A stretch of 36,557 nucleotides of DNA from a virus, in IMG/VR virus record IMGVR_UViG_3300043449_001668, positions 1-36,557 of that record. One strand, given 5' to 3'. The notes beneath the pieces are model-generated. The model had not been told where the DNA came from and ran no database searches. It saw nothing but the letters and a program-made list of their open reading frames with translations. Positions 1,899 through 26,482 of this stretch are shown piece by piece. Each line of letters opens with the position of its first letter. The stretch's first letter is position 1. A program made the position numbers and the translations under genes.

Positions 1899-3929
1899 AT
1901 GGAGCCAAACGAATTCTACGAACCTTCAGAGGGCGACAAGGAGCTTCTAGCATTCGTTACGGACCACTGCGACCGCTGGCGCGAATGGCGCGACACGAAC
2001 TACCTGGAGGCGTGGCTTGAATATGAGCGCATCTTCCGTGGCGAATGGGCTGCGGAAGACAAGATGCGCGAATCGGAGCGCTCCAAGATCCTCACCCCCG
2101 CCACGCAGCAAGCCGTGGAGACGCGCCACGCGGAGATCATGGAAGCGATCTTCGGCCAGGGCGAGTTCTTCGACATCAGCGACGACATCAAGGATGTCAA
2201 CGGCAATCCGCTAGACGTTGAAGCCCTCAAGGCCCAACTGATGGAGGACTTCAAGCAAGACAAGATCAGAAAGTCCATCGATCAGATCGAGCTGATGGCC
2301 GAAATCTACGGCACGGGCGTTGGCGAGATCATCGTCAAGACCGAAAAGGTCTTCGTGCCCGCTACGCAGCCGATTCCGGGCCAACCGGGCCAAGCGGCCA
2401 TTGGTGTGGTGGAGAAGCCCCGCATCGCGGTCAAAATCGTGCCGGTCAACCCCAAGAACTTTCTCTTTGACCCCAACGGCACCTCGATTGAGGACTGCCT
2501 GGGCGTAGCCGTTGAGAAGTATGTCTCGATGCACAAGGTAGTCGAGGGCATGGAGCGGGGCATCTACCGCAAAGTGAACATCCAACCTGCGGCCGAGGAC
2601 ACCGATCTGGAGCCCACGCAGGAGATCAGCCAGTATTCCAGCGACAAGGTGCGTCTCTTGACGTACTACGGCCTCGTGCCGCGCGAGTATCTCAAATCGG
2701 CCGAAGAGAACGAAGTCGAGGATCTGTTTCCTGAAGATTCTGCGGCCGACGAGTACAGCGACTTGGTCGAAGCCATCGTGGTGGTGGCAAACGACGGCTA
2801 TCTTCTGAAGGCCGAAGAAAACCCGTACATGATGAAGGACCGCCCGGTGCTGTCCTATCAAGATGATACGGTGCCCAACCGCCTCTTGGGCCGGGGCACG
2901 GTGGAAAAAGCCTACAACATGCAAAAGGCCATCGACGCCGAGGTGCGTAGCCACCTGGATTCGCTGGCCCTGACGACCGCGCCCATGATGGCAATGGATG
3001 CCACACGTCTGCCGCGCGGTGCGAAGTTTGAAGTGCGCCCGGGCAAGGCGATCTTGACGAACGGCAATCCCAACGAGATCTTGTTTCCGTTCAAGTTCGG
3101 CAATACGGACGGCGCGAATCTGACGACAGCCAAGGACTTTGAGCGCATGCTGCTGCAATCGACGGGCACGCTCGATGGCCAGGGCATGGTCACGCAAGGC
3201 GCGCGCGACGGTGCGGGCCTTTCGCTGGCGGTGGCGACCATCATCAAGAAGTACAAGCGCACGCTGGTGAACTTCCAAGAAGACTTCCTGATCCCATTCA
3301 TCCAGAAGGCGGCGTTTCGCTACATGCAGTTTGATCCTGAGCGCTATCCGTCGGTGGACATGAAGTTCATCCCGACAGCCACGCTTGGCATCATCGCCCG
3401 CGAGTACGAGCAGCAGCAGTTCATTGGCCTGTTGCAGACGCTGGGCCCGGACACGCCTGTTCTGCCGCTGCTCTTGAAGGGCATTCTGTCTAATAGCAGC
3501 CTCACTAACCGCTACGAACTGATCGCGGCGCTGGAGCAGATGGCCGCACCCAATCCTGAAGCTCAGCAGATGCAGCAGATGCAGCAGCAGCTTGCCCTGC
3601 AAGCGGCCCAGGCGCAGATTGCAGTGAGTACGACGCAGGCTGAACAAAATCGGGCGGAAGCTACCAAGCTGATGACCGAAGCGCAACTGATGCCGCAGGA
3701 AGTGCAGGCCAAGGTAATTGCCTCGACAACCAAGAACCTGCCTGCGGGCGGGGAGTCGGCGGAGTTCGATAAACGTGTGAAGATTGCCGAGCTGATGCTC
3801 AAGGAAGCGGACATCAAAAACAAGTCCAAGATCGTTGAGCTTCAGATGGCCGAGAAGCAAAATAAAGTCTCGGGGATGGAACAAGACTTCTTGGACGAGT
3901 TGACCAAGGAGCTGGGCAATGGACGTTGA
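1899..3929 (+). CDS. Portal protein (head-tail connector)
   Basis: A 676-residue protein directly after TerL, in the normal place for a portal. Portals form a dodecameric ring at one capsid vertex, dock the terminase and later the tail. The N-terminal part is charged and alpha-helical (WLEYERIFRGEW near residues 41-52). The central region has the mixed clip/stem character of podovirus portals. The C-terminal quarter is a Gln-rich helix (QQMQQMQQQ near 557-565) followed by long charged helices, which suits a barrel or coiled-coil extension. The last 11 bases overlap the collagen-like fibre gene. Assignment rests on position, size and overall resemblance. Confidence 0.85.
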   Translation: MEPNEFYEPSEGDKELLAFVTDHCDRWREWRDTNYLEAWLEYERIFRGEWAAEDKMRESERSKILTPATQQAVETRHAEIMEAIFGQGEFFDISDDIKDVNGNPLDVEALKAQLMEDFKQDKIRKSIDQIELMAEIYGTGVGEIIVKTEKVFVPATQPIPGQPGQAAIGVVEKPRIAVKIVPVNPKNFLFDPNGTSIEDCLGVAVEKYVSMHKVVEGMERGIYRKVNIQPAAEDTDLEPTQEISQYSSDKVRLLTYYGLVPREYLKSAEENEVEDLFPEDSAADEYSDLVEAIVVVANDGYLLKAEENPYMMKDRPVLSYQDDTVPNRLLGRGTVEKAYNMQKAIDAEVRSHLDSLALTTAPMMAMDATRLPRGAKFEVRPGKAILTNGNPNEILFPFKFGNTDGANLTTAKDFERMLLQSTGTLDGQGMVTQGARDGAGLSLAVATIIKKYKRTLVNFQEDFLIPFIQKAAFRYMQFDPERYPSVDMKFIPTATLGIIAREYEQQQFIGLLQTLGPDTPVLPLLLKGILSNSSLTNRYELIAALEQMAAPNPEAQQMQQMQQQLALQAAQAQIAVSTTQAEQNRAEATKLMTEAQLMPQEVQAKVIASTTKNLPAGGESAEFDKRVKIAELMLKEADIKNKSKIVELQMAEKQNKVSGMEQDFLDELTKELGNGR

Positions 3930-11194: not shown

Positions 11195-11260
11195 ATGGCA
11201 AACACCGCCTTTTCCCCGACTAATAGTGTCACGACCACTTCCGCAGCGAACTTCATCCCT
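11195..11260 (+). CDS. Major capsid protein, exon 1 (22 codons)
   Basis: This is the N-terminal arm of the coat protein, MANTAFSPTNSVTTTSAANF then IP, starting at ATG 11195 with TGGAG upstream. Unspliced reading adds only Ser-Leu before TAA at 11267-11269. The next capsid residues, EIWSDEIVAAYKKN, appear 591 bases later in phase 0. NFIPEIWSDE is a familiar N-terminal motif of podovirus coat proteins, so the split sits in its middle. The last six bases, ATCCCT, pair with GGGGAT at 11275-11280 to form the intron's P1 helix, with the expected U-G wobble at the 5' splice site. Confidence 0.88.
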
Positions 11261-11851
11261 AGCCTGTAAATTTTGGGGATTTAAAACCTTCTCTGAATAA
11301 CTGGGAGCAAACTTCGGGTGTTGTAACCAGAGGGAACACGATTGAACAACGACGCAGTTCACGCTAAGGAGGCGTATGAAGCGACTAAGTTGGAAGTACA
11401 TTGCAGGTTTGATAGACGGTGAAGGCTGTCTTGATGTACAGATCACCAGCGGGATTTACGTGCGGCCAAGAGTTCGAGTTGGACTGGCCGACAACTGCAA
11501 GATGCTCTTGCAGATGTTGCACGCAAATCACGGCGGTTCTCTGATCACAAGACCAAGCACGAACCCGAACTGGCAAAGTTCAACGTCTTGGGAACTGTGT
11601 GGGTATACGCTGGTATGCCCGTTCCTTAGAAACTTTGCCAACCACATGTTTATCAAGCATGAACAGGCCAAATTCCTTCTTGCGTTAGAAGGGATACTGA
11701 AAGGCAGACAGGTCGCCGATGAGGCAAGACAGTTTGTCGTAGATGAGCTAAAAGCAATGAAGCGTGACCCGCACAGACTAAGTGAGAGGGCGCAAGAAAG
11801 ACTGATGTCTCTCTTGTGATGCGATAGTCGGGCCGACTTTTTAGTCGGTGG
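11261..11851 (+). ncRNA. Group I self-splicing intron in the capsid gene
   Basis: A 591-nt intron. The 5' exon end AUCCCU (11255-11260) pairs with GGGGAU (11275-11280), giving P1 with a U-G wobble at the splice site. The adjacent AAAUUUU (11268-11274) pairs with the 3' exon start GAAAUUU (11852-11858) as P10, so both exons line up on one continuous guide. The intron ends in G (11851). A perfect P9-like hairpin, CCGACU-UUUU-AGUCGG, lies at 11833-11848, and UAGUC at 11825-11829 looks like the 3' strand of P7. GACUA at 11383-11387 could be its partner; GUUCACGCUAAG at 11357-11368 also resembles the conserved core, so the core fold is not settled by eye. The endonuclease gene fills the likely P8 loop region. 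Confidence 0.88.
11376..11819 (+). CDS. LAGLIDADG homing endonuclease (intron-encoded)
   Basis: A 147-residue protein with a single LAGLIDADG motif, YIAGLIDGEG (8-17). E16 occupies the catalytic acidic position, normally Asp or Glu. One motif means it probably acts as a homodimer, like I-CreI, cutting an intronless capsid allele at the exon junction so that the intron copies itself in. The middle is a beta-rich DNA-binding region (VRPRVRVGLADNCKMLLQML) and the C-terminus is helical (VVDELKAMKRDPHRLSERAQ). A strong AAGGAGG at 11366-11372 precedes ATG 11376, so it is translated from its own site rather than fused to exon 1. It may also help intron folding, as some maturases do. Confidence 0.9.
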   Translation: MKRLSWKYIAGLIDGEGCLDVQITSGIYVRPRVRVGLADNCKMLLQMLHANHGGSLITRPSTNPNWQSSTSWELCGYTLVCPFLRNFANHMFIKHEQAKFLLALEGILKGRQVADEARQFVVDELKAMKRDPHRLSERAQERLMSLL

Positions 11852-12760
11852 GAAATTTGGAGTGATGAGATTGTTGCCGCCTACAAGAAGAACCTTGTGC
11901 TGGCGAACCTCGTCAAGCGCATGAACTTCAAGGGCAAGAAGGGTGACACGGTCAACATCCCGTCGCCTGCTCGTGGCTCTGCCAACGCTAAGGCTGCAAC
12001 TGACGCCGTGACCCTGATCGCTGAGAGCGACAGCAACATCCAGGTGCTGATCAACAAGCACTACGAGTACAGCCGCCTGATCGAAGACATCGTCGAAGTT
12101 CAAGCCCTGACCTCGCTGCGCTCGTTCTACACCGAGGACGCTGGTTACGCTCTGGCTCGTCGTATCGACACCGATCTGGTTCAACTGGGCCGCGCTTTCA
12201 ACGGCGCTACCGTTGGCACCGACGACTATGCTACCAGCAACACCGCTACCAAGGCGTACATCGGCTCGGACGGCACCACTGCCTACAACAGCACGACCTC
12301 TAACGCCGCTGCTCTGACTGATGCTGCTATTCGCCGCACCATCCAGCGCCTGGATGACAACGATGTCCCGATGGACAACCGTTTCTTCCTGATCCCTCCG
12401 TCTAGCCGTAACACCCTGATGGGGCTGGCCCGCTACACCGAACAAGCCTTCATCGGCAACGGTGATGCGATCCGCAACGGCGAAATCGGTCAACTCTACG
12501 GCATGGCCGTCTTCGCCTCCACCAACGCCGACACCGGCGCGGGCAACACTGGCGCTGACCGCATCTGCCTGATGGGCCACCGTGACGCGATGGTGCTGAT
12601 TGAGCAACTGGGCATCCGCTCGCAGACTCAGTACAAGCAGGAATACCTGGGCACGCTGTTCACCGCTGACACCATCTATGGCGTCAAGGCTCTGCGTACC
12701 TCGGCTACCAGCACTGCGTCCAACGCTTCTGCCGCCTTCGCTCTGGCCGTTCCGGCCTAA
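11852..12760 (+). CDS. Major capsid protein, exon 2 (302 codons)
   Basis: The bulk of the coat protein. Joined to exon 1 it gives a 324-residue protein beginning the second part with EIWSDEIVAAYKKNLVLANL. Capsid-type features include GDTVNIPSPARG, a long spine-helix region (YEYSRLIEDIVEVQALTSLR) and a late stretch LGTLFTADTIYGVKALRTSA. The codon use is strongly biased toward GC-ending codons, consistent with high expression. A start at GTG 11897 is the first start codon inside this exon but would drop the conserved arm and has no ribosome site. The gene is followed by a strong terminator. Confidence 0.9.
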   Translation, partial: EIWSDEIVAAYKKNLVLANLVKRMNFKGKKGDTVNIPSPARGSANAKAATDAVTLIAESDSNIQVLINKHYEYSRLIEDIVEVQALTSLRSFYTEDAGYALARRIDTDLVQLGRAFNGATVGTDDYATSNTATKAYIGSDGTTAYNSTTSNAAALTDAAIRRTIQRLDDNDVPMDNRFFLIPPSSRNTLMGLARYTEQAFIGNGDAIRNGEIGQLYGMAVFASTNADTGAGNTGADRICLMGHRDAMVLIEQLGIRSQTQYKQEYLGTLFTADTIYGVKALRTSATSTASNASAAFALAVPA

Positions 12761-25027: not shown

Positions 25028-25163
25028 TTTTCTTCTCCATATCGTCGATTAATCGCTCCAGCGCCGCGCGGCGCTTGGCTATCGAGTTAGCCCGCCGCAC
25101 AACAATCTTCATCTCAGCCTGGGCGGCCTTCATCTTCGCGCGCCACAAATCAATACGTCTCAC
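25002..25163 (-). CDS. Small basic helical protein after the helicase
   Basis: A 53-residue protein starting at GTG 25163 (RRIDLWRAKMKAAQAEMKIV), overlapping the helicase stop (GTGA). The whole length is a charged amphipathic helix (ANSIAKRRAALERLIDDMEK). It may be a helicase cofactor by position only. Confidence 0.6.
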   Translation of the reverse strand: MRRIDLWRAKMKAAQAEMKIVVRRANSIAKRRAALERLIDDMEKKIGTFLAKT

Positions 25164-26482
25164 TTGAGTTCCTCCATTGCAATGTCTGATAGCGCGCGCT
25201 TGTCGTGTAGCGCCGCCCAAATCTTTTCGTCTACCGTTTTGTTGGTGAGCATGACGTAGCACCAGACGTCATGGCGCTGCCCGGATCGATGCAAACGTCC
25301 GAGGGTCTGCTCGTACAGTTCCAGCGACCAAGGCAGGGACAGGAAAACGATTTTTGATCCTCCAAACTGCAAGTTAAGCCCGTGCCCGGCTGATTTCGGA
25401 TGCACCAGTAGCAACTCGATTTGCCCGGCGTTCCACCGTTCCACGGCACGGTCATCATCCAGCGTCTGAGCTTGCGGATAACGGCGACGAAGTTCCGCCA
25501 GCTCCTCTTGATAGGTGTACGCGATGAGAGTATTGGCATGTTGGTTCTCTTGAATCAACTCGTCAAGACGATCAAATTTGTGGCCGCTAAACCACACCGA
25601 TTTTTGTGTCACAATGAACTTACCGGGCGTGATGGAGGGGCTACTATTCGTTTCATAAACAAAGCCCGACGCCATCTGTTGCAACTTTCCTGTTACAACG
25701 CCCGCATTGACCGCAATCGCTTTGGCGTCGGGGAACTCGACGACAAAGTTCTTTTTCATCTCGTTGTACTTGGTCATGTCCATGTCGCAGCGCACCTCGA
25801 CCGTGTGCAGCGGCGGCAATTTGTCTTTGTACTCGCCCGGCTCCAGCACGAACGTGGCGGGCTTGATCTTCTCCATGACCCGCGCCAGCGAACCAGGGCG
25901 CGGGGCCCAATCGCCAAACTCCTTGTTCATCAGCACAAAGTACGTCTGCATGAACGCGCCTTTGGAGCGCCCCAGAAGCGTCTGATCGACGATCTTGCAC
26001 TGGCCAAACACGTCCTCCAGGCCGTTGCTGGTGAACGAGCCCGTAAGCCCCCAGCGAATACGGCAATCGAGCACCTTAGACAGAGCCTTGAACCTAGCGC
26101 CAGAAGGGTTTTTTAGGCGCGTGAGTTCGTCAAAGACTACACCGTCGAACGTTGGGTTCAGACTAGCCAGCCACTGGATGTTGTCGTAGTTGATCACGAC
26201 GACCTGCGCGTTCAGGGCCGCCTTGCGCTGGGCTGGCGTGCCCACGGCGACGGCAAGCTGTAGGCCAGGGGCCCACTTCGGCGCCTCGACGGGCCACACG
26301 TCGGTGCAGACGCGCTTGGGGGCGAGCACCAGCCAACGCTTGACCACGCCGTTGTCCAGCATCGCCTTCATGGCCGTGAGCGTGATCGCCGTCTTGCCTG
26401 CGCCCACTGGCGCAAGGATCATCGCCCTGTCGTGTTCGTACAGGAAGTCGGCGGCTGTCTCTTGATAATCACGCAGCTTCAT
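25160..26482 (-). CDS. SNF2-family DEAD-like helicase
   Basis: A 440-residue ATP-dependent helicase or translocase. Motifs in order: KLRDYQ at the N-terminus (2-7), Walker A APVGAGKT (24-31), VFDELTRLKN as motif II (117-125), GLTGSFTSN as motif III (145-153), then in the second RecA-like domain the KSAGHGLNLQ stretch and QTLGRLHRSGQ (motif VI) near the end. Phage SNF2 proteins of this kind commonly act in replication or recombination. It overlaps genes on both sides by four bases and follows the VRR-NUC nuclease in the same operon. Confidence 0.92.
   Translation of the reverse strand: MKLRDYQETAADFLYEHDRAMILAPVGAGKTAITLTAMKAMLDNGVVKRWLVLAPKRVCTDVWPVEAPKWAPGLQLAVAVGTPAQRKAALNAQVVVINYDNIQWLASLNPTFDGVVFDELTRLKNPSGARFKALSKVLDCRIRWGLTGSFTSNGLEDVFGQCKIVDQTLLGRSKGAFMQTYFVLMNKEFGDWAPRPGSLARVMEKIKPATFVLEPGEYKDKLPPLHTVEVRCDMDMTKYNEMKKNFVVEFPDAKAIAVNAGVVTGKLQQMASGFVYETNSSPSITPGKFIVTQKSVWFSGHKFDRLDELIQENQHANTLIAYTYQEELAELRRRYPQAQTLDDDRAVERWNAGQIELLLVHPKSAGHGLNLQFGGSKIVFLSLPWSLELYEQTLGRLHRSGQRHDVWCYVMLTNKTVDEKIWAALHDKRALSDIAMEELK

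Follow-up and report, generated by a model that had tools for sequence, protein, structure and literature searches.

In a podovirus-like phage, the gene for the major capsid protein (MCP) is almost certainly interrupted by a mobile group I intron carrying a LAGLIDADG endonuclease, an element that would both splice and home. The window, which is the complete stretch of DNA analysed and a whole virus record of 36,557 bases, contains terminase, portal, tail, lysis, helicase, exonuclease, DNA polymerase, and primase genes. The group I assignment, put forward in the initial annotation, is supported by compensatory changes in the diagnostic helices and by the intronless allele found in relatives. 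BLASTN found no match to the region among 50,697 phage records. A DNA helicase gene (phrog_62, 2e-123; window 25160-26482) is located on the minus strand, opposite to the other main genes.

Capsid gene and limits of the insertion

By its PHROG and Pfam matches the interrupted gene is that of the MCP, as exon 2 alone matches the phrog_267 major head protein (7.7e-42) and Pfam PF19821, Phage_capsid_2 (1.5e-12). Reading of the frame bears out the annotated first exon of 22 codons with a stop two codons into the intron: Ser and Leu codons are followed by TAA at 11267-11269. The junction was surveyed in the best 80 IMG/VR relatives of exon 2, 77 of which have a readable junction. It is uninterrupted in 75 of the 77, where E, Q, K, or D comes after F-I/V-P, and the remaining two (L047 and L050) contain the same intron at the same base as the window. 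The limits of the insert, 11261-11851, and its last base, G, are fixed by the empty site of the intronless relatives. Removal of the intron restores NFIP-EIWSDE, and the earlier proposals that the coat protein resumes with this motif after 591 bases and that the intron ends in G both agree with the relatives, in which the reading is unbroken (75/77 readable junctions). A coat protein starting instead at GTG 11897 is unsupported, all 75 uninterrupted relatives continuing upstream of the junction. It follows from the sequence that capsid production would depend on splicing, and very efficient splicing would be needed, since few phage genes are expressed as strongly as that of the capsid. Coordinates of all features are collected in Table 1.

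Table 1. Features of the interrupted MCP gene, its intron, and the intron-encoded endonuclease (window coordinates).
Feature	Position	Strand	Details
MCP exon 1	11195-11260	+	22 codons from ATG 11195, MANTAFSPTNSVTTTSAANFIP; ends ...NFIP, last codon CCT
P1 5' strand AUCCCU (exon)	11255-11260	+	pairs with 11275-11280; 99% of cells paired and both-sided changes in 21 homologues
Group I intron	11261-11851	+	591 nt, after Pro22 codon; terminal G at 11851
P10 guide	11269-11274	+	pairs with exon 2 11852-11857; 6/6 pairs in window
P1 3' strand, internal guide GGGGAU	11275-11280	+	U-G at splice site
P3 5' strand CCUUCUC	11287-11293	+	pairs with 11784-11790; 100% of cells paired, 5/7 pairs covary
P4	11301-11330	+	11301-11304 with 11327-11330; invariant save one G-U change
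P5, capping P4	11307-11310 with 11321-11324	+	covaries
P6	11334-11360	+	11334-11337 GAAC with 11357-11360 GUUC; nearly invariant; found by MFE and RNAalifold
Shine-Dalgarno-like AAGGAGG	11366-11372	+	ahead of endonuclease ATG; from sequence
LAGLIDADG homing endonuclease ORF	11376-11819	+	147 aa, single motif
P7 5' strand C-[A bulge]-GACUA	11774-11780	+	codes HRL of endonuclease; pairs with 11825-11830
P3 3' strand	11784-11790	+	inside endonuclease ORF
P8 hairpin	11792-11817	+	11792-11797 with 11812-11817, extended inward; 97% of cells paired, six of six pairs covary
P7 3' strand UAGUCG	11825-11830	+	
P9 hairpin GCCGAC/GUCGGU	11832-11849	+	87-92% of cells paired, 5/6 pairs covary
MCP exon 2	11852-12760	+	starts GAA 11852, EIWSDE...

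Helices of the ribozyme core

A search with the inserted ORF as query gave 65 loci, and in 58 of these, the window included, splice sites and core were placed from sequence anchors and the exon frame, yielding 31 distinct helix sets. P1 and P3 to P10 are present across this comparison, with compensatory changes in P1, P3, P5, P7, P8, and P9, including the pseudoknot typical of group I introns that is formed where P3 and P7 cross. Over the 31 sets, all P3 cells (100%) are paired, single positions showing as many as five pair types, and pairing reaches 97% in P8 and 92% in P9. The corresponding values for P1 (99.5%) and P7 (100%) are biased upward by the way these helices were placed, P1 sites in homologues having been picked by complementarity and P7 strands by GACT/AGTC motifs. 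Changes at the pair beside the P7 bulge, which is C-G, A-U, G-C, or U-A among homologues, are free of that placement bias. P4 and P6 provide no covariation evidence because they are nearly invariant.

Exon 1 and the P1 guide covary. At the splice site, a U-G pair is found in 31 of 31 distinct sets, where it and the terminal G were also conditions of the site search and therefore not independent; in the window, the splice-site U and terminal G are fixed by its own empty-site relatives. P1 (AUCCCU with GGGGAU, U-G wobble) and P10 had been described as contiguous on one guide, and both were found so, the P10 guide directly adjoining that of P1. P10 pairing over homologues is 82-83% (82% vs 72% in shuffled sequences).

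A separate MAFFT alignment of 21 ORF-excised introns showed 94.6% of cells paired, compared to 77.6% after shuffling. Changes on both sides were seen at 27 of 49 pairs in the same alignment, and the covariation score was 0.441 vs 0.128 for shuffled alignments. None of 500 shuffles, which ignore sequence relatedness, reached any of the covariation measures, and pairing fell to 37-48% when strands were slid by one to three columns as a control. RNAalifold recovered P1, P3, P4, P5, P6, P8, and P9 unaided. The minimum free energy (MFE) fold of the window's ORF-excised sequence contains the same helices (z -2.1) and is modestly better than shuffled sequences, 5 of 200 of which fold as well.

The initial annotation had looked to the Rfam group I model for confirmation, which it does not give: RF00028 matches neither the window, whatever the threshold applied, nor the LAGLIDADG introns of 29 relatives. 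The scan of the window and these 29 related loci produced one group I match, a second intron in locus L113 (81.4 bits), and detection of this compact intron indicates that the search itself works. RF00028 covers 253 positions and is a detection model, not a defining feature. The endonuclease ORF and its leader (11361-11773, ∼0.4 kb) separate P6 from P7, and this split of the core is most likely the cause of the miss; the folded core is evident once the ORF is excised and homologues are aligned. The L113 match (3564-3834) is itself ORF-less and follows the LAGLIDADG intron of the same MCP gene after ∼70 nt, giving this locus twin introns in one MCP.

An endonuclease frame that overlaps the core

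That the ORF encodes a LAGLIDADG endonuclease, as annotated, is borne out by profile, Pfam, and predicted-structure matches. The family profile matches PDB structures derived from I-CreI and I-MsoI (best 2.5e-14), and PF00961 (LAGLIDADG_1) is detected in all 33 members (E no higher than 0.1, best 2.4e-9), the window protein alone scoring below the Pfam cut-off. Its AlphaFold model (pLDDT 94.6) matches I-CvuI and I-CreI, with a Foldseek E of 1.5e-7 to I-CvuI. The motif is AGLIDGEG with the catalytic acid E16, replaced by D in one member. Single-motif LAGLIDADG enzymes act as homodimers, and the window enzyme is therefore expected to be dimeric. The window protein also matches phrog_5046 (2.7e-15), a family labelled 'HNH endonuclease', while being LAGLIDADG by fold and motif.

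The description of an intron with an endonuclease thus stands, with a refinement besides the Rfam miss: the ORF is not confined to a core-free peripheral loop. The codons at its end (...H R L S E R A Q...) double as the P7 5' strand, the P3 3' strand, and P8, the P8 hairpin being wholly inside the frame. Codon choice shows the RNA constraint on this end of the ORF, since Leu135 is encoded by CTA or CTG only (28 and 3 of 31) and Leu4 of the same proteins mostly by TTA. An alternative placement, with the ORF in P8 and GCGACUA at the ORF start (∼11380) as P7, was rejected, as these bases are unconserved and the Arg and Leu codons vary. At the ORF end, CACAGACUAAG is base-conserved and the neighbouring P3 covaries, placing P7 there.

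In a set of relatives (L116, L118-L120, L123-L127, L130, L131, L138-L140, L142, and L144) the P7 strands lie 170-190 nt apart instead of ∼50. Here the endonuclease frame seems to continue through P8 with Cys-x-x-Cys motifs, which suggests an added zinc-binding domain inside P8. A scan of bacterial genomes found distant LAGLIDADG proteins only, about a third identical or less over long stretches. Two pattern scans for ORF-less versions of the window intron found none, the sole return, on the L137 contig, being its ORF start.

Alternatives, mobility, and known systems

LAGLIDADG genes are also found in inteins and group II introns (PMC12350094), and split genes around endonucleases occur in phages. 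Yet it is extremely improbable that the insert is one of these other elements, or a free-standing endonuclease gene dividing the MCP into two proteins. The in-frame stop after two codons means that it cannot be an intein, and the helices, including the P3/P7 pseudoknot, are of group I type. Against two separate proteins, no ribosome-binding site is evident before GTG 11897 and the exon 1 residues are present in all relatives. Also very unlikely, if slightly less so, is that the capsid gene is broken in this record alone, whether by an intron that has decayed or lost activity or by a chimeric assembly. This virus contig is known from DNA alone and its intron is unrecognised by Rfam, but it retains the full set of core helices, the two splice sites, P10, and an endonuclease ORF that is intact, and 30 further distinct introns, drawn from many contigs, preserve the structure through compensatory changes.

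At every placeable junction the intron lies at the same capsid motif, between (F/Y/L)-(I/V/T/L)-P and E-x-W, in capsids with identity to the window MCP as low as 23-30%. The exon 2 motif, E-x-W/Y, belonged to the placement rule, and the failing loci were inspected apart: L121, in which P1 was not placed, splices to FVPEIYS in an independent placement, and L099, for which no frame was found, has GAAGTATGGAGT after its P9, the same capsid motif. The Pro codon is CCT in 58 of 58 intron loci, where CCT was required for P1 placement, vs 10 of 75 intronless relatives (CCA in 48). The independent placement required the final T only and gave CCT in all loci but L107 and L137, where a chance upstream hairpin was picked. 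Formation of the splice-site U-G pair requires the U of this codon. Two explanations fit: the intron can enter CCT alleles alone, or its arrival brings donor sequence along. The MCP reading frame past the intron is likewise short, at 24-99 aa, in five loci (L107, L110, L133, L136, and L142); some of these may hold further introns and others may be cut by the contig end.

In the MCP tree, the window belongs to a well-supported 29-row clade whose other 28 members are all intronless, and it adjoins the intronless L001 (96% identical). Its nearest intron relative (79% intron identity) sits in a different MCP clade. This patchy distribution fits gain by homing, with intron loss in many relatives as a possible alternative; it comes from biased sampling, since MCP similarity defined one set and endonuclease similarity the other. 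Endonuclease identity exceeds MCP identity in 82% of locus pairs, which is by itself no proof of transfer, since rates may not be equal for the two proteins.

Taking the MCP intron as a mobile group I element, we infer the following course of splicing, dimerisation, cleavage, and homing. The intron RNA would fold into a standard group I core within the MCP mRNA, and P1 and P10 would align both exons on one guide. With a guanosine cofactor the intron would excise itself, joining codon 22 (CCU) to GAA and giving the full capsid protein. The endonuclease would be translated from its own ribosome site within unspliced RNA and, as a dimer, would cut intronless MCP genes at the conserved FIP-E-W site, repair of which would copy the intron in. 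A wider reading, held only tentatively and in our view doubtful, is that a capsid-site-specific lineage spread among very distant phages via the FIP-E-W codons, with an endonuclease that may serve as a weapon against co-infecting intronless relatives and a C-terminal tail shaped by the ribozyme core.

A single intron family occupying one codon of capsids with identities down to 23-30% would offer a natural series well suited to work on splicing efficiency, homing range, and co-evolution of guide and exon. There is also a practical gap: the standard Rfam model is blind to these introns, and annotations of viral metagenomes may therefore show MCP genes as truncated.

Group I introns in capsid genes are already known. 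Tuc2009, a lactococcal phage, has one in a capsid-subunit gene, as cited in PMC3706429. The endonuclease resembles the group I intron enzymes I-CreI, I-MsoI, and I-CvuI in fold, size, and a single AGLIDGEG-type motif; it differs in its ∼20% identity, its target, and a C-terminal part encoded by the ribozyme core. The intron-encoded endonuclease of PhiPA3, another phage, is reported in PMC11620839 to contribute to competition between co-infecting phages, and by analogy the window enzyme may have such a role. No description of this intron lineage or of a recurrent MCP insertion site was found in the one literature collection searched, and the window intron apparently belongs to an undescribed site-specific family. 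A close likeness in kind is the mycobacteriophage LittleE, whose major capsid gene has a group I intron with a LAGLIDADG-type (I-CreI-like) homing endonuclease; RT-PCR and N-terminal sequencing demonstrated its splicing (Pope et al. 2013, PMC3706429). The LittleE intron is ∼820 bp, with the endonuclease on the opposite strand, and interrupts a different capsid in a Mycobacterium phage, whereas in the window family the ORF lies in the sense strand and overlaps the core, and the insertion site is fixed at FIP-E.
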